The notes beneath the pieces are model-generated. The model saw only the letters and a program-made list of their open reading frames with translations. It was not told the origin of the DNA and made no database searches. DNA of 50,749 nucleotides. It comes from a virus. A program made the position numbers and the translations under genes. Below, piece by piece: positions 7,679-17,736 of this stretch. How positions within the stretch are numbered: position 1 is the first letter of the stretch; every line of letters starts with the position of its first letter. Location: IMG/VR virus record IMGVR_UViG_3300043015_003085, positions 1 to 50,749 of that record. One strand, 5' to 3'.

Positions 7679-7951
7679 CTAGTGGTATGTTTTATCTATA
7701 GAATCGTCGTCTAAACCGAAAATATTTTGTTCTTCAATAGCCTGAAGTAGCATATGTGTTTGTTTTAGAGCTTCTGCAATGTATGCAATGTCTCTATTTA
7801 CTTTATTAAGTTGACTTTCAACAATTTCAATATAATCTTGTTGCACTGCTAGCTGTTCATCATATTTTTCGAATACATCGAAAACAATTTCTTTAACCAT
7901 ACTTTCAGCTTTTTCTTTAATTTTGGTCTTCAATGTATTTATAAATTTCAT
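7679..7951 (-). CDS. Hypothetical coiled-coil protein (90 aa)
   Basis: Not recognised. It is one long amphipathic, probably coiled-coil helix (KYDEQLAVQQDYIEIVESQL, NKVNRDIAYIAEALKQTHML) with an acidic tail. The start has a good Shine-Dalgarno (GAGGAAAAAG) and lies inside the 3' end of the upstream ribbon-helix-helix-like gene (35-base overlap). Possibly a partner of that protein or a small structural oligomer. Confidence 0.65.
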   Translation of the reverse strand: MKFINTLKTKIKEKAESMVKEIVFDVFEKYDEQLAVQQDYIEIVESQLNKVNRDIAYIAEALKQTHMLLQAIEEQNIFGLDDDSIDKTYH

Positions 7952-8216
7952 CTTTTTCCTCGTTTACCAATTGTGACTTGGTCTTTCTCTTTTTTCTCTT
8001 CTTTTCATGAGAAAGACTCTGTAAGACTTTCATAATATACTCGTCTTCTTCACAAACTAAGCCACATATCTCTTCAAGAAATCTTTGTATTGAAGTATTG
8101 TTTAATGCAACTTGAGCTTTTAGGACACGATGTCTTACAGGAGAAAGAGCAATATGAACTGTTTTCTTTTGCTTTAGATATTCCTCTTTTATCGACGCAT
8201 CGTATTCAACTTTCAT
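7917..8216 (-). CDS. Ribbon-helix-helix-like small protein (99 aa)
   Basis: Residues about 19-60 (KTVHIALSPVRHRVLKAQ, then NNTSIQRFLEEI) have the strand-helix-helix layout of Arc/MetJ-type DNA-binding proteins: a short beta strand, a helix with LK, then the NxSIQxFLE helix. The C-terminus is strongly basic (HEKKRKKRKTK) followed by an acidic end. A DNA-binding or DNA-condensing role is plausible; the target is unknown. It starts 3 bases after the upstream stop and overlaps the downstream gene. Confidence 0.6.
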   Translation of the reverse strand: MKVEYDASIKEEYLKQKKTVHIALSPVRHRVLKAQVALNNTSIQRFLEEICGLVCEEDEYIMKVLQSLSHEKKRKKRKTKSQLVNEEKDEIYKYIEDQN

Positions 8217-8218
8217 TT

Positions 8219-9022
8219 TTAACCTGCTGTTCTGGCTCCTACAGCTGTCTTATATTTTACAGCCTCTGAGCGATCTAATTCTATGTCTATTCCGTTTTCT
8301 TGTAAAATAGCCAAGAATCTATCAATAAACTCGTCGAATACCTTATCTTTATTAGGATTTATAAATCTTTTGAAATACTTTGAAACTAGCTTAATAATGT
8401 AAATCGCTCTATCAGTTAGATCAAATCTTTCAAAGTATTGATAGCTAATCTTTGCTAAGTCCAAAGCATCAGGAAGCTGGTTTTCCTTGCTATTAAGCAT
8501 GCTTTCTAAACTTTCAATAGAAGACTCAATGTTTTCTTGAGAATTATCATCACCTTCTGCTTCAAAGATAAAGTTTTTAATGCTTTGATTACTATATGAC
8601 TTTGACTCAAATGTTTTTGAAAAGGATGATTTAGCTGAAATTCCATCTAAAGCTTTGAAGAAATCGTTTGCAATCCCACGAAATCTCTTTTCATGCGAGC
8701 GATCTCTTATGTTAGCACCAGCTAACTCAGACTTTTTAATAAAACTTTCAATATCAGCTAGCTTTTTAGAGTCTGTCTTACCATCATCTGCAGGTGCTTC
8801 TTCTCCTTCTTCACCACTCTCTTCACTTTCACCCTCTTCAGGCTCATCTTCAGAGAATGCGTCATCAGGAATACCTTCATCATTATCTTCAGAACCACTC
8901 TCAGGTTCATCAGCTGCAGGTGTCTCTTCTTTATCGTCGCCTTCTTCCTCTAGGAGTATATCAAGAGATGGCGATTTTGTTTCTCTAAGAAGCTTTTCGA
9001 CTCTATATGAATATCTACTCAT
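8219..9022 (-). CDS. Acidic virion-type protein with leader (267 aa)
   Basis: Not recognised. The N-terminus has two leader-like sites, KLLRE|T (residues 10-15) and DILLE|E (residues 21-26). Residues about 25-80 are an extreme Glu/Asp/Ser stretch. A helical domain of about 180 residues follows (IESFIKKSELAGANIRDR, ISYQYFERFDLTDRAIYIIK). The start overlaps the stop of the superoxide dismutase gene as ATGA. The acidic tract resembles scaffold or internal head proteins. The plus-strand ORF across the acidic part is a shadow. Confidence 0.7.
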   Translation of the reverse strand: MSRYSYRVEKLLRETKSPSLDILLEEEGDDKEETPAADEPESGSEDNDEGIPDDAFSEDEPEEGESEESGEEGEEAPADDGKTDSKKLADIESFIKKSELAGANIRDRSHEKRFRGIANDFFKALDGISAKSSFSKTFESKSYSNQSIKNFIFEAEGDDNSQENIESSIESLESMLNSKENQLPDALDLAKISYQYFERFDLTDRAIYIIKLVSKYFKRFINPNKDKVFDEFIDRFLAILQENGIDIELDRSEAVKYKTAVGARTAG

Positions 9023-9756
9023 TTTAATAATCCGTGAATCTGGTCAGCAATTTTGATACGATTTTCGATGACGTTCCAGTCAAGCTCTTTCATCATAGCA
9101 AATACATATGTTTTTCTATCCTTAAGATAGTCTCTATAATAACTATGTTCCCAACAGTCCATAACAATTACAGGATGAAAGCCAATCATACAATTAAGAC
9201 TATGTAAGTCAATAAACGTATTCATGTATCGCTTAAGCATTGTGCTATATCCCATTACAGCCCAACCATTTCTGGCAGACATTGAACATGCAATAAAATC
9301 ACGTTGCCAAGCATCAAATGATCCAAAGTCTCTCTCAATACGCATATGTGAAAGAGAGTTCATGTTAATTGTTGAGTTAAGATCACTTATATTCTGAAAG
9401 AATAAGCCATGCAAGAATGTAGCGTTATAGTTATATGTTTCATCAAGCTTAAGCTGTCTAAATGAAGAATGATTAAGATTAGACTTATCACGATCTACAA
9501 CATCTAACTTAGCAGATACTGCGTTAAGTGTTTTAACGTAACCTTCAAGCAACTCTTGATGTGCTGCTTTATTTTTCTTTCCAAGAAGCTCTGTCTTTAA
9601 GTCAAACTTAGGAGCTTGCGTTACGTAAGCCTCACTTAAAACTTGTGTCTCTTCGACAACTTCTTCTTTTGAAGCCTCTTCAATAACACCGTTTTCTTGT
9701 AGAGAATCTTTAATCTCTTTCATTAATAACTTTTCAATGTCGCTTTTATTAATCAT
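9019..9756 (-). CDS. Fe/Mn-type superoxide dismutase with prohead-protease-like propeptide (245 aa)
   Basis: Residues about 50-245 match the iron/manganese superoxide dismutase family, which converts superoxide to oxygen and hydrogen peroxide. The four metal ligands can be assigned: His66 (AAHQELLEGYV), His116 (FLHGLFFQN), Asp200 and His204 (MDCWEHSYYRDYL). Family motifs FGSFDAWQRDF and GWAVMGY are present. Unlike typical cytosolic forms, about 45 residues precede the domain. They are acidic and helical and end QVLSE|A, so Leu40-x-Glu42 followed by Ala is a good prohead-protease site just where the enzyme fold begins. The gene is coupled by ATGA overlap to both neighbours in the virion-type operon. 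Packaging in the capsid is inferred. Confidence 0.88.
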   Translation of the reverse strand: MINKSDIEKLLMKEIKDSLQENGVIEEASKEEVVEETQVLSEAYVTQAPKFDLKTELLGKKNKAAHQELLEGYVKTLNAVSAKLDVVDRDKSNLNHSSFRQLKLDETYNYNATFLHGLFFQNISDLNSTINMNSLSHMRIERDFGSFDAWQRDFIACSMSARNGWAVMGYSTMLKRYMNTFIDLHSLNCMIGFHPVIVMDCWEHSYYRDYLKDRKTYVFAMMKELDWNVIENRIKIADQIHGLLK

Positions 9757-10121
9757 GCTAACTCAAACTCTTTGTCAAATGTTTCTTCGTCAATTACAAT
9801 ATAGTCTCTATCGTCTCCAGCTGATACTTCACTAGAAATAGCTGCATCTTCTTCATCCACTTCAGGGATAAATCGTTTCTGTCGCAACTCATCAGGACTC
9901 ATTCGAGGCTCATCTGGCAAATATAACATAATTAAGCCACCGTCAACGACGCCTCCAAATGTATACTCAGCGCCTGTGGTGACTCTTCGAACCTTTAACA
10001 TGTCAGCATCATTTAAGCTTCCCATGTTTTTAACGTCCATCTTTTCAGCTAAGTAATAGTTTAATCGCTTATCATACGCTTCTTGAATAAGCTTAACAAC
10101 TTTTGCTTCTGTTAATCTCAT
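9753..10121 (-). CDS. Hypothetical virion-type protein with leader (122 aa)
   Basis: Not recognised. The leader MRLTE|AKVVKLIQE|AYDKRL holds two (L/I)-x-E sites followed by Ala (after residues 5 and 14). A small domain (TTGAEYTFGGVVDGGLIMLY) and an acidic C-terminus (VDEEDAAISSEVSAGDD) follow. The start at 10121 has a good Shine-Dalgarno (AGAGGAATAG). The stop overlaps the superoxide dismutase start (ATGA). Confidence 0.7.
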   Translation of the reverse strand: MRLTEAKVVKLIQEAYDKRLNYYLAEKMDVKNMGSLNDADMLKVRRVTTGAEYTFGGVVDGGLIMLYLPDEPRMSPDELRQKRFIPEVDEEDAAISSEVSAGDDRDYIVIDEETFDKEFELA

Positions 10122-10182: not shown

Positions 10183-13100
10183 TTATCTAATCTTCCACAA
10201 CCTTAACAAATCATCATGGACTTTCTTTGCATCAAACAAGTCTTCTTTATTTAATTCTAATCTATCACTTTCATTTCTACCAGACCTCTTCGTTCTAGTT
10301 ATTCTTCTTTTTCTTCTTATGCTCTTCTTTTTAAGCTTTTTTATAAATTTATCTCTACCCGCTCTTGAAGAGCGCTGGGGGCCTTGAGGATCGTCGCCTG
10401 TATCAAACGGTTGAGCGCTTTTATCTTCTCCAGCAGCTTTACTTGAAGTTTCTTTTGTTTCTTTGCTTTCTTGACCAGCCGATGACTCTTTAATAAAGTT
10501 TTTAAATATATTTTTAAAATTCTGTTTATTTGAAGCCCTAGCCTTTTCTTTTTGTGGATCTAGATCATCATCACTTAATTCAAGTAGTTCAGGACTTTGA
10601 CCCATAATTGATTGCATAACTGATGTTGCAAATTCTCTTCCATCAAAGTCTCTAGATTCGTCTGGAAGACTTACTCTAGAGTGATAAGATGTTGCTTTAC
10701 TTGTTCTCATTGATTTAATTACTATAGCAGTTGCTAAAACTAGTGCAATTTGTTTGTTAGCATCTTCGCTGTACTTTATGGCTGTTGTCTTTATTTGATC
10801 AAAAATAGGTTGTTCAATACCTATTACAATATAAAAGTTGTCATCTCTGTCTTTTAGATCAGGTTCGTTATAAAAGACAACTTTATCATAAATAGCTCTT
10901 CTGGCATTTTCATCGCTTGCCATGAACTTAAAATAAGCTTTTTGTATTCCATCGTCACCTGACCAGCTTTTACTAATAATACAACCATGTCTATTTATAT
11001 TAAAATTACTAATAAGCTTACCAACATTTCCTCTATTGAAACTATTTGAAAATTGTAATAAAGTTCTTTCTATTTCTTTAACGAGAGCAAGACCTGCGTC
11101 TCTAGTAAATGTTTCGTTGTGAACAACCTTAATAGGACTGTCATATTGTGATCGTTTAAGAAGCTTGTCAATCCACTCATTGCTTTCAAGTTTACGAATA
11201 GCCTCTTCAGCATCAGACGCAATACTTGATGGCATACCATCCATCTCACCTTTAATTGTCTTAACAACAACATCCATAACTTCTTGAACAGTTTGACCAG
11301 ATCTACCACCTGCATCAAACATAGAGTTGAGTTTGCCATTAGCTAAAAGATACATGATTACTTTAGAAACATCGCCTTCCATTGAGTTAAGCAATGTTGT
11401 AAAAGAGTCTATGTCAAGGAAGTCACCACGACTCTTAGCTGTGTTACCTCTAGGTTGTGCGCCATTAATAGATCCGTGTCCTTGCTTTGCATTAGGATCA
11501 ACGATAAGTCCTGCTAAAGCTTCTGCCTGTGAAGCTCTAAGACTTAACTGTTCAACATCTGTAATCTTAATTCCAAAGCAGTCTGACATTAAAGCATTAA
11601 GTTTAACTGCTAATTCTCTCTCAACTCTAGAAAAAAGATTAGGATTACCAACCTTAAAGGTAGATTCATAAGCAAAGAAGTTTTTGGCCTCAAGCTTTTT
11701 AGAAATTGTTGCCCAATTGATGCTAGCACGAATATGACTAGTATCTTCTTCAGTTTCAGGCTTGCTTTCTTTTTTATCTTCTGAAGTTTCTTCTTTGTCA
11801 CCTTCTTCTTCAAATAAGAAGCTTAAGCCTTTATTGTGAATTAACTCATCTTGTATGTCTTCAATAAGTAGACTTAGACCTTGTCGATAAATAAAAGACT
11901 CTGCAGCAGTCTCTGGTCCTTCTGCTTCTTTTGGCTCTTCTTTAACACCTAACACGTCTTTTGAAATGTCTAAGATAATCTTTCTTATTTGATCTTTACC
12001 TGACTTAACATCACTTTCTAAACCAATTTGTTGTGGGCCTTTTCTAAGATTCTTTCTAAGAGACCTATCTCCCATCTTGCTTCCAAAAAGTGAAGCTATA
12101 ATTGGTGCAGCTAGAAGAGCTGTTCCTCCGGTTGCCAGAGTAGGCATTGCAATTGCGGCACCAACAAGTGCAGGCATAACAGCTAAACCGCTTAAAACTG
12201 ATGCATCCATCGAGTCTTGTCTTGCCTGATAAGCAATCTGCGAAGCTTCTTGTTGTGCCATCTGTGTTCTTTGCTGAAACACCATTGCAGCAATGCTATT
12301 CATCATAGAATCTAATGTTACATCATATCTGTCTGTAAGCTCATTAATATCATCAGTGCCTTCAGACTTCTTAAACTTTTCTGTAAATAGACTTATAAGT
12401 TCATTTACTTCATTTGCATCTTCAGCAAAATCTTCAAGTTTAGGTTCTTCTACTTTAGTAACTTCTGGTTTTTTTACTTCGACTTTATGTACTTCCTTTA
12501 GATATAACTGAAATACTTCAACAATAAAGTCACCCATAACCTCTTTAACTTGCTCAAGAACTTTTGGATTTTTAGCAAAACTATCTTCGATTTTGCTCAT
12601 AAGATGTTTCAAAACAAATTCTTCTTTTTTGCCTTTTAAGAATGAAAGAGAATTTTTAAACCAGTTTCCTATTCCTTTAGCGCTATCTTTGAAAACTTCA
12701 ATTATATCTTTTATAAATACAGGAAGTTCGTTTACCATGATATATGCGCTTATAAAAGGAATCGCACACATTGTTGCAGCACCAATTGCTTTTGCAAGTT
12801 GAGCCAGAGCAACGACAGTTACAACACTTTCAACTAAACCTTCGTTAAGTTGTCCATCTATTATTTTACCTGCTCTTTGAAGACCTGTTTCATACTTTAC
12901 TTTAAGTATTTTATCTAATTCTCGAACACCATTTTTACTAAAATCTTTAACTTTTTTTACTTCCTTACCAAACACTTCTTCTAATACATTTAACAAATAG
13001 TCAATAACTTCTTTGTTGGTAATGTTTTTAACTACATTTTGTTTAAGTTCTTTAAGATGATCAGTATTTATTTTTTTGTTTTCTAAAAGTTCTTTATACA

Positions 13101-16100
13101 TTTTGAAATCTAAATTGTCATATGTAAGCCCCTTGAAGTCAACTTTATTAAAAAGACTTAAAATATGATTTATATTTTTTTCAAAATTCTTAAAGTCTGG
13201 TGCTTTTTTCTCTTGTGGCTCTTCAACTTCACTTTTTTCAAAACTGTAATCAGACTGTGTTATTAAATTTTCTAACTCAGACTGTGTATATGGTGTGCCT
13301 TTTTTAAGTGTAATAACTTTACCATCTTTAGATACTTCTTCAACAAGAAGACTTAGTCCTTGTGTATAAATAAAGCTTTCATCGGTCTGATTTTCTTCTT
13401 TAATCTTATAATCTTGATTAAATTTAATAGTTTTTTCTTGATTACTGCCTCTTTGACCAAGTCTACCTTCAACGTCCATAGTCTTGTCAGGCTGTGCATC
13501 AGATCTAAGAGTAATCTTGACTTTTGATCTAAGGTTGCCTTTAATCTCATGCTTGTCAAAAGTATCTTGCAAAGTATTTGCCTGTACTTGTGCTTTCTCA
13601 GTCTTTTCTTTCTCTTGTGCTTTCTCAGTCTTTTCTTTCTCTTGTGCACCATCAGCAGGAGGACTTTGAAATTCAGCAGTCTGTATTATTTGATTTAATG
13701 CGTCTGCACTTAAAGGTCTACTAGATTTAGCAGGATCAAATGATTCTAGATCAGCTAATACATCGCCACGGTCATCTACTATAGTAATGCTTAAATCTTG
13801 ATCGTCTCTGGTAACTTTAACACTATCGGCGCCTGTAAGCTTGTTTTTGTCTTCTGGTTTGAGTTGAAGTTTTAATAAGTTTAGTTTAGCACTAAACGTT
13901 TTATTACCATCAAACTTATCTAGATGATCTGCCGTATTAAAAACAGTGCTGCCTTTTGTATACTTTTCTAAGTCTTTAATTTGTGCTGATATGAATTCGT
14001 ACTTTTTTCTTTTTAAGAATGATATAAATTTATTTTTTGTTACACTCTTCGCTAACTCGGGTAAGTCTGGAAGATTGTCCTTTTCCTCTATTAAAAGTGA
14101 CAAACCTTGATGATAAATAAAACTTTCTCGTTTTAACTCTTTTATATTGACATCACCAGATTTCGTGCTTATCTTTTTTAATTTAATAGTATTATCAGCC
14201 TTATATAGTTCAGTTTCTAATGTAAAAATCTTGTTGTCTTTTTTAAGATAAATTTTAACTGGAATCATAGCAGGTGTTTTAGGTTTATCTGGGTTTGACA
14301 TGTTAGAAACAAAAAGATCTGCATTAAATAACGTGTCTACATCATTTATGTTGCCTTGAAGAGCTTTGCTTTTATCTTGTTGACTAGGTTCTTCTGGTGG
14401 CTCTCCGGATTGTTCTTCAGACTCTTCTCCTCCAAGAGCATCTCGTAAAGCTGCTCTAATATCTCCAGTAGAATGCCCTGCAGTTTGGAGAGCATTACTA
14501 ACTTGATCTTGTGTAATGTCTAGGCTTTTCAATCTTTGTGTAAGATTTTCACCATCTACTTTTTGTAAAACATCATTTAATTCTTTAGGTGTAAGTTTTG
14601 CTATTACTTGATTTTTTTGATCAGCGCTAAGACTTTTAAGTTCTTTCGTTGCGTTAAGAGGACTTTCTGACTTAAGTGCTTGTGTTATTCTTTCTATAAC
14701 ATCTTCTTCCTTAGACTTTGCTAAACTCTCGAGTTCTTGCGTTTGTGCATCTGAAAGATTTGCTGCTTTAATGACTTCTTGCGATTTATCTAAGGCAAGG
14801 TCTAAAGTTTGAAATCCTTGTGAAAGATCAGTGTCTTCTAAACTCTTCAAAAAATCTGCTATTTCATCAACAGATAGTTCTCCTGTTACTTGCTTTTTTT
14901 GATCATTGTTAAGTTTATTAAGTGTTTTACTAATAGATTCTAGATTTCCAGACTTCATAAAGTTTCTAATTGGTTGCACATCTATTTGACTACTTTGTTC
15001 GCCTGACTTTGCTTGATTTCTTGGAGACGGCTTAACACTATTTAATTTTTCTTTAGCATCTTGTTCACTTAAATTACCATCAAAAATTTCCTTTATTGCA
15101 TCAGCTAAAGGCTGATCAACTTCACCATAGAAATCTGTAGTATTTTTTTCTGTAACAAGCACCAATGAAAGATCTTTGTCTACGTCGTCTATGTCAATAA
15201 TTTTGCCTGTTGCAAATCCTCTAAATTCTCCTGGGTCGAGTTTTATATAATATCCTAAGCCTTTCTTTGAATAAAATCTAACATATAAAGTATTTTCTTT
15301 TGTTTTAGTGAGATAATAGCTATTAAAGTCAGCTAAGCGAGTCCCATCATTTATATGATTTCTTGTTAGACTTTTATTTAAGTCTTCATCACTTTGAGCG
15401 TCGATAAAGTCTATAGTCATATTGCTTTTAATCTTTAGACTTTGATCAATCACGCTATTTAATAATGTTTTAGAATCGTCTGAGTTGTCGGAGATAAAGC
15501 CTTTATTTTTAATATAATAAAGTTTTGTATCACCGTCACTAATTACAGCAATATTACTTTTGTCTAGTTTATTTAATTTTTCAATAAATTCATCAACATC
15601 GCTGGCATAATTTGTCAAGCTATTAGCTTTATCACTAGCAGGACTTTCTAAAGGGCTTTCCAATTCAGCTGAGTCTATGATCCTTAGGTTTAGGTCTAAG
15701 ACAGAGTGCTCGCCTGTGCCGCTAGCAGCATTTGTTTCAAAAAGTAATGAAGATAAACTTGATTCATGAATCATTTCTCCTTCAAACCTTAAAGAAGAAC
15801 TTTCATTAGAAACACCTTGTGCTTTATCAGAAGGATCCAAATCTATTTTTTTAGAGTTAAAAAGTGTTAAGTATATATCACTTTGAAATTTATTAAGATA
15901 TTTTTTTATAGGTAATACAAAAACAATTACTTGATCTTCTTTTTTACTATTCTTTATCTTAACTTTTTTATTTGTTCTTGGATCAACAATTGTAAAAAAT
16001 GCGTGTCCTAAACGATCAAACATTTTTATGTCTCTATCTTGAGACTTTGTCTTGTCTTCTTTACCAACATTTAGAAAGTCAAATCTTACAGTCCCAATGT

Positions 16101-16593
16101 TCGTAAGAGTAGTATTTGTACCTTGAATTAAATTTGCAACTTGTGTATTTAATTTATTGTCTGACTTTTCAAGGCTCTTATATAACTTGTCATCAGCATT
16201 TTTTGCAATTGAATTTTTAATTTGAGTAAAACCTGCATCAGTACTTTCAGGACCACCTTGTTGTCCTGAGAGACTTGCAGCATTTTTCTGATATATTTCA
16301 AGCCTGCTTTTTAAGTTTGCTGTGGGTCTAAAAAGCATTGACGCAAAAGTTTGTAGCTCTATTTCAGGCAAAGCAAGAAAAGCTGCACTACTAATTCCTC
16401 TAATTTGGATGACTGGCGTATTATCCTTGCTTAAAGCTTTTCTTGCTTTAATCTGCTTTTTTCGAGTAGCTCTTCTAGCACCTTTTTTTGCTGCTCTTTT
16501 TTTAGCAGCATCGTTTTTATTTCTCTCAACAACTAACTCGTTGTTTTCGTGATCTTCAAACAATAACTCTGAAAGACTTTTGTTATAATTCAT
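10183..16593 (-). CDS. Giant multi-domain virion-type protein with six leader-like repeats (2136 aa); candidate polyprotein
   Basis: No family is recognised. The N-terminus (KSLSELLFED) is a leader of the type seen in neighbouring proteins. The same motif, roughly [S/G]-L-S-x-L-[LIF]-[FIV]-E, recurs internally with the Glu at residues 13, 286, 836, 1085, 1578 and 1595. Three copies share the form FIYxQGLSLL. Each fits the T4 prohead-protease rule (L/I/F)-x-E and lies next to charged linkers. The pieces between sites would be about 273, 550, 249, 493, 17 and 541 residues. Other features are a very basic stretch (about residues 24-52), two related helical repeats (about 550-595 and 645-695), a 9-residue tandem repeat near 985-1001, hydrophobic segments near 1250-1300 and 1460-1505, and a basic C-terminus. 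A tape-measure role is the main alternative. Confidence 0.85.
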   Translation of the reverse strand: MNYNKSLSELLFEDHENNELVVERNKNDAAKKRAAKKGARRATRKKQIKARKALSKDNTPVIQIRGISSAAFLALPEIELQTFASMLFRPTANLKSRLEIYQKNAASLSGQQGGPESTDAGFTQIKNSIAKNADDKLYKSLEKSDNKLNTQVANLIQGTNTTLTNIGTVRFDFLNVGKEDKTKSQDRDIKMFDRLGHAFFTIVDPRTNKKVKIKNSKKEDQVIVFVLPIKKYLNKFQSDIYLTLFNSKKIDLDPSDKAQGVSNESSSLRFEGEMIHESSLSSLLFETNAASGTGEHSVLDLNLRIIDSAELESPLESPASDKANSLTNYASDVDEFIEKLNKLDKSNIAVISDGDTKLYYIKNKGFISDNSDDSKTLLNSVIDQSLKIKSNMTIDFIDAQSDEDLNKSLTRNHINDGTRLADFNSYYLTKTKENTLYVRFYSKKGLGYYIKLDPGEFRGFATGKIIDIDDVDKDLSLVLVTEKNTTDFYGEVDQPLADAIKEIFDGNLSEQDAKEKLNSVKPSPRNQAKSGEQSSQIDVQPIRNFMKSGNLESISKTLNKLNNDQKKQVTGELSVDEIADFLKSLEDTDLSQGFQTLDLALDKSQEVIKAANLSDAQTQELESLAKSKEEDVIERITQALKSESPLNATKELKSLSADQKNQVIAKLTPKELNDVLQKVDGENLTQRLKSLDITQDQVSNALQTAGHSTGDIRAALRDALGGEESEEQSGEPPEEPSQQDKSKALQGNINDVDTLFNADLFVSNMSNPDKPKTPAMIPVKIYLKKDNKIFTLETELYKADNTIKLKKISTKSGDVNIKELKRESFIYHQGLSLLIEEKDNLPDLPELAKSVTKNKFISFLKRKKYEFISAQIKDLEKYTKGSTVFNTADHLDKFDGNKTFSAKLNLLKLQLKPEDKNKLTGADSVKVTRDDQDLSITIVDDRGDVLADLESFDPAKSSRPLSADALNQIIQTAEFQSPPADGAQEKEKTEKAQEKEKTEKAQVQANTLQDTFDKHEIKGNLRSKVKITLRSDAQPDKTMDVEGRLGQRGSNQEKTIKFNQDYKIKEENQTDESFIYTQGLSLLVEEVSKDGKVITLKKGTPYTQSELENLITQSDYSFEKSEVEEPQEKKAPDFKNFEKNINHILSLFNKVDFKGLTYDNLDFKMYKELLENKKINTDHLKELKQNVVKNITNKEVIDYLLNVLEEVFGKEVKKVKDFSKNGVRELDKILKVKYETGLQRAGKIIDGQLNEGLVESVVTVVALAQLAKAIGAATMCAIPFISAYIMVNELPVFIKDIIEVFKDSAKGIGNWFKNSLSFLKGKKEEFVLKHLMSKIEDSFAKNPKVLEQVKEVMGDFIVEVFQLYLKEVHKVEVKKPEVTKVEEPKLEDFAEDANEVNELISLFTEKFKKSEGTDDINELTDRYDVTLDSMMNSIAAMVFQQRTQMAQQEASQIAYQARQDSMDASVLSGLAVMPALVGAAIAMPTLATGGTALLAAPIIASLFGSKMGDRSLRKNLRKGPQQIGLESDVKSGKDQIRKIILDISKDVLGVKEEPKEAEGPETAAESFIYRQGLSLLIEDIQDELIHNKGLSFLFEEEGDKEETSEDKKESKPETEEDTSHIRASINWATISKKLEAKNFFAYESTFKVGNPNLFSRVERELAVKLNALMSDCFGIKITDVEQLSLRASQAEALAGLIVDPNAKQGHGSINGAQPRGNTAKSRGDFLDIDSFTTLLNSMEGDVSKVIMYLLANGKLNSMFDAGGRSGQTVQEVMDVVVKTIKGEMDGMPSSIASDAEEAIRKLESNEWIDKLLKRSQYDSPIKVVHNETFTRDAGLALVKEIERTLLQFSNSFNRGNVGKLISNFNINRHGCIISKSWSGDDGIQKAYFKFMASDENARRAIYDKVVFYNEPDLKDRDDNFYIVIGIEQPIFDQIKTTAIKYSEDANKQIALVLATAIVIKSMRTSKATSYHSRVSLPDESRDFDGREFATSVMQSIMGQSPELLELSDDDLDPQKEKARASNKQNFKNIFKNFIKESSAGQESKETKETSSKAAGEDKSAQPFDTGDDPQGPQRSSRAGRDKFIKKLKKKSIRRKRRITRTKRSGRNESDRLELNKEDLFDAKKVHDDLLRLWKIR
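11809..11841 (-). repeat. Leader-like repeat copy 6 of the giant protein (Glu1595)
   Basis: Encodes HNKGLSFLFEE. It lies only 17 residues after copy 5 and precedes the C-terminal domain of about 540 residues. The motif ends L-F-E, followed by an acidic run. Confidence 0.6.
11860..11901 (-). repeat. Leader-like repeat copy 5 of the giant protein (Glu1578)
   Basis: Encodes SFIYRQGLSLLIE followed by Asp. It is nearly identical in protein sequence to copies 3 and 4 (FIYxQGLSLL[IV]E). It separates the region with hydrophobic segments from the C-terminal part. Confidence 0.65.
13339..13380 (-). repeat. Leader-like repeat copy 4 of the giant protein (Glu1085)
   Basis: Encodes SFIYTQGLSLLVE followed by Glu. 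It is nearly identical in protein sequence to the copies ending at Glu836 and Glu1578. Confidence 0.65.
13591..13644 (-). repeat. Two tandem 27-bp units inside the giant gene
   Basis: Two identical in-frame 27-base units encode AQEKEKTEK twice in a charged linker of the giant protein. The repeat preserves the frame and probably arose by slippage. Confidence 0.8.
14086..14127 (-). repeat. Leader-like repeat copy 3 of the giant protein (Glu836)
   Basis: Encodes SFIYHQGLSLLIE followed by Glu-Lys-Asp. It lies between two domains of different composition. Confidence 0.65.
15736..15768 (-). repeat. Leader-like repeat copy 2 of the giant protein (Glu286)
   Basis: Encodes ESSLSSLLFE followed by Thr-Asn. 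It resembles the N-terminal copy (KSLSELLFED) more than the FIYxQG copies. Confidence 0.55.
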
Positions 16594-16706: not shown

Positions 16707-17162
16707 CTACCACAAATCAGGTCGATCAAATATCATGCAGTCCATATTTGCTTTCTTTTTTACTGCCTGCACGTCTAATCCAGCTGCCCTAAGTATTTCT
16801 AGGCCTTCGACGTTTCTATATTCATCAGCGTAAAATACGGACTCGATATTGCTATTCACAATAGCTCTTGCACAGTCAGGACAAGGTGACAAAGTCACAT
16901 ACATCTTTTTCTTTTTAGGATTATTATAGTCTAACTTCAAAAGTGCATTAATTTCAGCATGAATTAAACCACTACAACCAGGCTCTTCTGAAAGAGGTTT
17001 ATTAGGTCCTCCCTTATAAGAACCATTATAACCAATAGAAAGAACCTGTGTGTTATCTTCTGTTACAACAATAGCACCAACCTGAAATGTAGGATGATGA
17101 CTTCTTTGTGCAATTGTCTTAGCCATATCCATCCAAATACTATCCCATGAAGGTCTTGTCAT
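16707..17162 (-). CDS. Deoxycytidylate (dCMP) deaminase (151 aa)
   Basis: Zinc-dependent cytidine-deaminase fold. His68 and Glu70 in HAEINAL and Cys94/Cys97 in SPCPDCARAI give the zinc site and catalytic glutamate. The GYNGSYKGGPN loop is typical of dCMP deaminases, which convert dCMP to dUMP. Length is normal. A strong Shine-Dalgarno (AAAGGAG) precedes the ATG. It is last in a unit with thymidine kinase and the TMK-like fusion, so dUMP is made next to enzymes that feed dTTP synthesis. Confidence 0.93.
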   Translation of the reverse strand: MTRPSWDSIWMDMAKTIAQRSHHPTFQVGAIVVTEDNTQVLSIGYNGSYKGGPNKPLSEEPGCSGLIHAEINALLKLDYNNPKKKKMYVTLSPCPDCARAIVNSNIESVFYADEYRNVEGLEILRAAGLDVQAVKKKANMDCMIFDRPDLW

Positions 17163-17175
17163 ATTTCTCCTTTGT

Positions 17176-17736
17176 TTAACTCGTTAATGCAGGATGAGCA
17201 TAAAACGATCTTGGTTCATACATATCTTCTCCTCCTACAACAGGATCATGCCCAACAGCTAACTTAGAGAACGTATAATAAGCGTCTTCACTAGTCCTAG
17301 GACATACTGCAGGACAAACTTCAATTCTTGTTGCATAAGGCATCATCTCTTTTAACTCTCTAAACGGCTTAAGATTAGCACTTAACTGAATGGACGATAC
17401 CACAATTGTAGCGCCTCTCTTAAAAACTTCCAACAACGTTTCTGCGACACCATCAATCATAAATGCTTCATCAACAGCAATAACATAATCTTTGTAGGAC
17501 TCAATTTGTTGCTCATCAATAATGTGCATAATATCTGCTCCGCTACTTACACAATGAGCAACAACTTCAGCACCGCTATGCGAACAAATCTTTGACTCAC
17601 TATATCTATCATCAAGACGCGGCTTAAATGCCAAAACACTTTTCTTTTGACGTGAAAACCTATCAACATCAGCAATTAGTCGTGATGTCTTTGAACCATA
17701 CATAGGACCTGTGTAAATTGTAAACGTTGGAATCAT
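17176..17736 (-). CDS. tdk: Thymidine kinase, TK1 type (186 aa)
   Basis: Phosphorylates thymidine to dTMP. The P-loop is GPMYGSKT (residues 10-17), a variant of the usual GPMFSGKT. The Walker B/catalytic pair is Asp89-Glu90 in AVDEAFMID. The lasso region retains only one zinc cysteine pair (Cys141, Cys145); the second pair normal for the family is not seen, so the zinc site may be altered. Length is normal for the family. The Shine-Dalgarno is GGAGATGAG. It lies between the TMK-like gene and the dCMP deaminase. Confidence 0.9.
   Translation of the reverse strand: MIPTFTIYTGPMYGSKTSRLIADVDRFSRQKKSVLAFKPRLDDRYSESKICSHSGAEVVAHCVSSGADIMHIIDEQQIESYKDYVIAVDEAFMIDGVAETLLEVFKRGATIVVSSIQLSANLKPFRELKEMMPYATRIEVCPAVCPRTSEDAYYTFSKLAVGHDPVVGGEDMYEPRSFYAHPALTS

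Follow-up and report, generated by a model that had tools for sequence, protein, structure and literature searches.

The window analysed here, a 50,749-nt stretch of viral DNA taken from IMG/VR, carries a minus-strand open reading frame running from position 9756 to 9019 and encoding a 245-residue protein with the fold of a superoxide dismutase (SOD), the plus strand of the same interval being closed by stop codons. An earlier note on this DNA had reported a reading frame at these positions without stating its strand; the frame is real and lies on the minus strand. The gene and its neighbours comprise the following features (the arrow marks the predicted cut):

9019..9756, minus strand: gene of the SOD-fold protein, 245 aa (open reading frame, Pfam, phmmer, AlphaFold2, Foldseek)
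9631..9756, minus strand: leader, residues 1-42, a predicted head-targeting propeptide (variable, with E42 invariant; the closest cellular relatives lack it)
9694..9747, minus strand: predicted leader helix, residues 4-21 (AlphaFold secondary structure)
9628..9639, minus strand: predicted prohead-protease site L40-S41-E42↓A43 (E42 in 67/67 members, P3 L/I/V in 66/67, P1' A/S/G/N)
9022..9630, minus strand: predicted mature SOD-fold protein, residues 43-245 (AlphaFold2 confidence; Foldseek match to 1coj)
9559..9561, minus strand: metal ligand His66 (H in 57/67; lost with other ligands in 10 of 12 ligand-less members)
9409..9411, minus strand: metal ligand His116 (H in 56/67)
9202..9204, minus strand: outer-sphere His185, of the atypical Fe-SOD type (H in 55/67; changed in 11 of 12 ligand-less members)
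9157..9159, minus strand: metal ligand Asp200 (D in 61/67)
9145..9147, minus strand: metal ligand His204 (H in 55/67)
9753..10121, minus strand: upstream cassette gene, 122 aa (leader with an L-x-E site, YLAE; 4-base overlap with the SOD gene)
8219..9022, minus strand: downstream cassette gene, encoding an acidic protein of 267 aa (4-base overlap with the SOD gene; leader ending LDILLE)
7917..8216, minus strand: third downstream gene, 99 aa, a small conserved protein with no clear leader (14 loci by tblastn)

The C-terminal domain and the predicted fold place the window protein in the Fe/Mn SOD family. Pfam Sod_Fe_C matches it with E=7e-20 (71.4 bits, cut-off 20.9) and Sod_Fe_N with 0.0025 (18.7 bits), under the curated cut-off of 27; this weak score looks like divergence rather than absence of the alpha-hairpin N-terminal domain, since two long helices (H60-86 and H98-122) are present in the predicted fold. 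By sequence, the best solved relative found with phmmer is the Fe-SOD of Aquifex pyrophilus (1coj, E=7e-30). Each of the four metal ligands is present (H66, H116, D200 and H204), and the outer-sphere residue His185 aligns with the His of the Aquifex and Methanobacterium enzymes. The AlphaFold2 model, based on a 62-sequence alignment, has a mean pLDDT of 91.8, with values above 90 across most of residues 43-245, and all its top Foldseek matches in the PDB are SODs, 1coj being superimposed with a target-normalised TM of 0.87, at 2.4 Å and 30% identity. The earlier note had recognised an Fe/Mn SOD with its four metal ligands, which Pfam and phmmer agree upon, and had proposed structure prediction as a check, which supports the SOD fold; convergence of the ligands in space has indirect support from the fold match and from the joint loss of ligands and His185 in some relatives. 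Two features of the protein were considered and discarded. The first ligand and Tyr are 7 residues apart, against 8 in 1coj; this was rejected as the sign of a broken site, since the first ligand is lost together with the other ligands; the same spacing is found in some cellular SODs. The basic character of the mature protein was rejected as a hint of DNA binding, the pI of 8.4 in the window being an outlier against a family median of 5.8. Neither the SOD nor its two cassette partners matched a PHROGs family.

Two scans of IMG/VR recovered, after removal of duplicates, at least 67 distinct SOD relatives, window included. The family is larger than this, because of the 89 matches of the second scan the best 80 were retained; moreover, loci L037, L051 and L059, whose reading frame was not recovered automatically, are excluded from the 67. 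In a tree with cellular and cultured-phage SODs, the leader-bearing phage proteins form one clade (support 91/100). A protein search of a collection of cultured phages gave no close member, the best matches being about 23-31% identical, and a nucleotide search of the same collection gave no match. Judged from these sequences, the family belongs to a large, widespread group of uncultured T4-like phages. One subclade (L073:5681-6643, L075:9986-10912, L091:1564-2556 and L092:9986-10987) encodes proteins of 308-333 aa with about 60-90 extra residues. A close leader-bearing relative (L144) lies on a 305.8-kb contig, NHDW01000006.1, filed under a Methylococcaceae MAG; this contig is probably a misbinned phage, and the filing a possible hint of the host.

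In the window protein the SOD fold is preceded by 42 residues ending in LSE↓A, with 12 D/E against 5 K/R and a pI of 4.3. The acidic leader of about 42 residues described in the earlier note is thus found in this protein, its acidity not being a trait of the family: leader pI spans 4.3-10.7 among members, and acidity as a packaging signal was rejected. Across the 67 members the leader measures 22-61 residues and its sequence is nearly unalignable, with a column entropy of about 3.5 bits at position 39 against 0.0 at position 42. Because E42 is kept in every member within a leader otherwise too variable to align, the site is not due to chance. Position P1' is A or S in 63/67, and the leader end fits (L/I)-x-E↓(A/S/G) exactly in 62/67, window included; T55, a few residues further on, is also invariant. 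L-x-E is a short motif, and a genome-wide scan for leaders by regular expression is descriptive only, because the pattern misses several of them, that of the SOD included. In the AlphaFold2 model, confidence is about 89-90 over residues 1-20, drops to 62 over residues 31-40, a linker, and stands at 89 in the block 41-50. The closest cellular SODs, from Myxococcota (up to 40% identity), start at about the equivalent of A43 and have no counterpart of E42, so that cutting at the predicted site would give back an N-terminus of the cellular type.

The genes on both sides of the SOD carry leaders of their own, in which the Glu of L-x-E is kept in 53 of 57 positional counterparts upstream and in 61 of 63 downstream. 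Together with the 4-base overlaps, these sequences support the translational coupling to leader-bearing genes on both sides that the earlier note had pointed out; the overlap of the SOD with the downstream gene recurs in 31/63 loci. The product of the 99-aa gene has no confident Pfam match. In L042 the SOD and its usual downstream partner are separated by a 181-aa protein with an apparent signal peptide. Further upstream, window positions 10183-16593 (minus strand) encode a protein of 2136 aa containing ESFIYxQGLSLL(I/V)E(E/D) three times, plus related GLSFLFEE and SSLLFE segments. Each repeat segment resembles a leader end with L-x-E, and the protein may be a polyprotein from which several virion pieces are cut. 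Proteins of similar size occupy the same place in L001, L021, L024 and L027, and a tblastn search with the 2136-aa protein against the SOD loci gave no sequence match. Beyond it, a block at 16707-17736 (minus strand), with dCMP deaminase and thymidine kinase, is conserved in the window and related loci, though the intervening genes vary.

As regards the machinery that might remove such leaders, 23 long contigs were available, each with exactly one SOD match. A T4-type prohead protease (Peptidase_S77) was found in 19/23, Gp23 also in 19/23, and both together in 19/23. The N-terminal boundary of Gp23 reads LRE in all 17 distinct sequences read, which is the expectation for a T4-type protease cutting after Glu, and in contig G004 the genes between the protease and Gp23 begin with similar leaders. 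The Gp23 profile has no match within the window, which is a 50.7-kb fragment, and from the contigs of its relatives we infer that the window phage has a prohead protease. A weak additional Gp23-like match on the L075 contig (G024:C1:222928-223056) falls in a 170-aa open frame far from the main capsid gene. The packaging and trimming foreseen in the earlier note hold as predictions by comparison with relatives, through the invariant site, the S77 protease, the L-x-E of Gp23 and the leaders of the neighbours; trimming at E42↓A43 and packaging of the window SOD are well supported in this comparative sense.

The internal proteins of T4 provide the model for such a pathway, as they bear a capsid-targeting sequence, are trimmed by gp21 and are carried and injected with the DNA (PMC9958956, PMC3012670), the T4-type protease cutting after Glu (PMC5694885). 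An Fe/Mn SOD turned into a T4-type internal head protein is therefore, in our view, the likely product of the gene, with the leader as a head-targeting propeptide, which by analogy with T4 is the most likely role of this segment. The leader, a short helix followed by a flexible linker, would target the SOD into the prohead core during assembly; the gp21-type protease of the phage would then cut after E42, and the mature protein, with an N-terminus like that of cellular SODs, would stay in the head with the DNA. There it could dispose of superoxide around the packaged DNA, or do so in the next host cell should it be ejected. Dismutase activity, with Fe or Mn, is likely for the window protein, and would probably persist once packaged because the metal site is intact in the window phage and most of its relatives. 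The injection suggested in the earlier note would be a further, hypothetical step, and protection of packaged DNA or a structural role would fit equally well. Altogether, packaging, cleavage and activity are what we infer from the fold family, the ligands, the leader, the invariant site, the protease and capsid genes and the repeated loss of the metal site, all of them read from sequence.

This loss separates the members of the family. The four ligands are retained in 55/67, and at least one is lost in the other 12, which show the patterns RRDG, NSSR, NTSR, QRDG, LREG, HNDN and HHDT. All 12 keep the leader and (L/I)xE↓(A/S), and the AlphaFold model of one of them (L079) retains the SOD fold (pLDDT 86.4, TM of 0.87 to 1coj). 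When the active-site columns are left out of the tree, ligand loss needs three changes, two of them forced by well-supported branches, and a single clade of ligand-less members, a group named after the data were seen, is rejected weakly (p-AU 0.042). The phylogeny thus suggests at least two or three separate events, and in at least as many lineages the site would have decayed with leader, cleavage site and fold being kept. Repeated loss with the leader retained argues against catalysis as the sole task of the family. Since the ligand-less lineages keep the protein without canonical catalysis, a role in the virion that goes beyond SOD activity is probable, and the decay of the site makes it very likely that the protein has a non-catalytic virion function as well. 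The same losses, together with the conserved fold and leader and the strongly conserved residues outside the metal site, including the MMKELxW region, would also suit a purely structural recruitment, in which every member would use the SOD fold to build the head or core, and the retained metal site for stability rather than dismutation. This we hold to be rather unlikely, because the four ligands persist in most members and because the outer-sphere His is also lost in 11 of the 12 ligand-less ones, as would be expected if the whole site had been selected for function up to its joint loss. As for the origin of the head-packaged enzyme, we give an even chance to a one-time capture of a cellular SOD by a large T4-like clade, followed by packaging in the head via a removed leader and by a turn, in several lineages, to a pseudo-enzyme retained solely for a virion role; an enzyme fold would then have been domesticated as a phage head component.

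Published accounts treat phage SODs as genes that protect the host (PMC6802176, PMC12542629), and an ordinary cytoplasmic auxiliary enzyme guarding the host from reactive oxygen, with an incidental or regulatory leader, would follow a reading already made for them (PMC6802176). The SODs of MIJ3 and Vibrio phage 2.275.O lie amid chaperone, Clp, ribosomal-protein or topoisomerase genes, suggesting cytoplasmic roles, and the genes upstream of the SOD in most of our loci (of the 78 examined, 72 have dCMP deaminase there and 56 thymidine kinase) could be taken in the same sense. However, these cultured-phage SODs are without a comparable leader and site, and a cytoplasmic role leaves unexplained the invariant (L/I/V)xE↓(A/S), the matching leaders of the neighbours and the leader of ligand-less members, so that we deem it improbable for this family. 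Still less credible is a leader acting as a permanent tether, with folding or subunit contacts, rather than a protease site, accounting for the conservation of E42 and the AYV segment: E42 could be conserved for the fold because the E42-K50 stretch is modelled with good confidence, as are residues 41-50 as a whole, and T55 nearby is likewise invariant, but the closest cellular homologues begin at about A43 with nothing equivalent to E42, and Gp23 and the neighbour proteins keep the same L-x-E at their own leader boundaries.

Phage SODs are usually read as host-protection genes acting in the cell, and the comparative evidence gathered here would place one inside the virion. What is new, from the sequences compared, is the loss of ligands in 12/67 members with leader and site kept, and these lineages offer a natural experiment separating catalysis from the virion role. 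The reading makes a simple proteomic prediction, a mature N-terminus at Ala43, and suggests that invariant L-x-E leaders could serve to list head-packaged proteins in uncultured phages. A literature search, in which subscription journals were thinly covered and which is weak evidence of absence, turned up no account of a tailed phage that packages an SOD. Among giant viruses of eukaryotes, virions carrying SOD are already known (PMC9405923).

Among known systems, the SODs of PA5oct-like MIJ3 and Vibrio phage 2.275.O share with the window protein the Fe/Mn-SOD family and a large phage as carrier, and differ in lacking a comparable leader and site, in their gene neighbourhood and in their very distant place in the tree. 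The Cu,Zn-SOD of Megavirus is likewise carried in the virus particle, as is predicted here from genes, but it is an unrelated enzyme of a eukaryotic virus with another way of packaging (PMC9405923). In the phiKZ-like phage SPN3US several head proteins are processed, their propeptides being cut C-terminal to Glu by a gp21-related protease; that protease belongs to family S80 and its motif is A-x-E, and SOD is not mentioned in the available portion of the source (PMC5694885). Atypical Fe or cambialistic SODs, such as those of Aquifex pyrophilus (1coj) and of Myxococcota at about 40% identity, have the same fold, four ligands, outer-sphere His and mature N-terminus, whereas the phage protein has an added leader, its metal site is lost in some members and, unlike 1coj, it is one residue shorter between the first ligand and Tyr, as are some Bacillota SODs. 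The closest parallel is with IPI, IPII, IPIII and Alt of T4, which also bear a short N-terminal leader, removed by a cut behind the Glu of a short motif; SOD-bearing genomes likewise encode a T4-type protease and Gp23, and the SOD too is predicted to remain in the head. In contrast to the T4 proteins, its body is an Fe/Mn-SOD rather than an IP or an ADP-ribosyltransferase, its packaging is a prediction from genes, and its leader is longer, 42 aa in the window and 22-61 in the family against the 10-20 residues quoted for T4 (PMC5694885).
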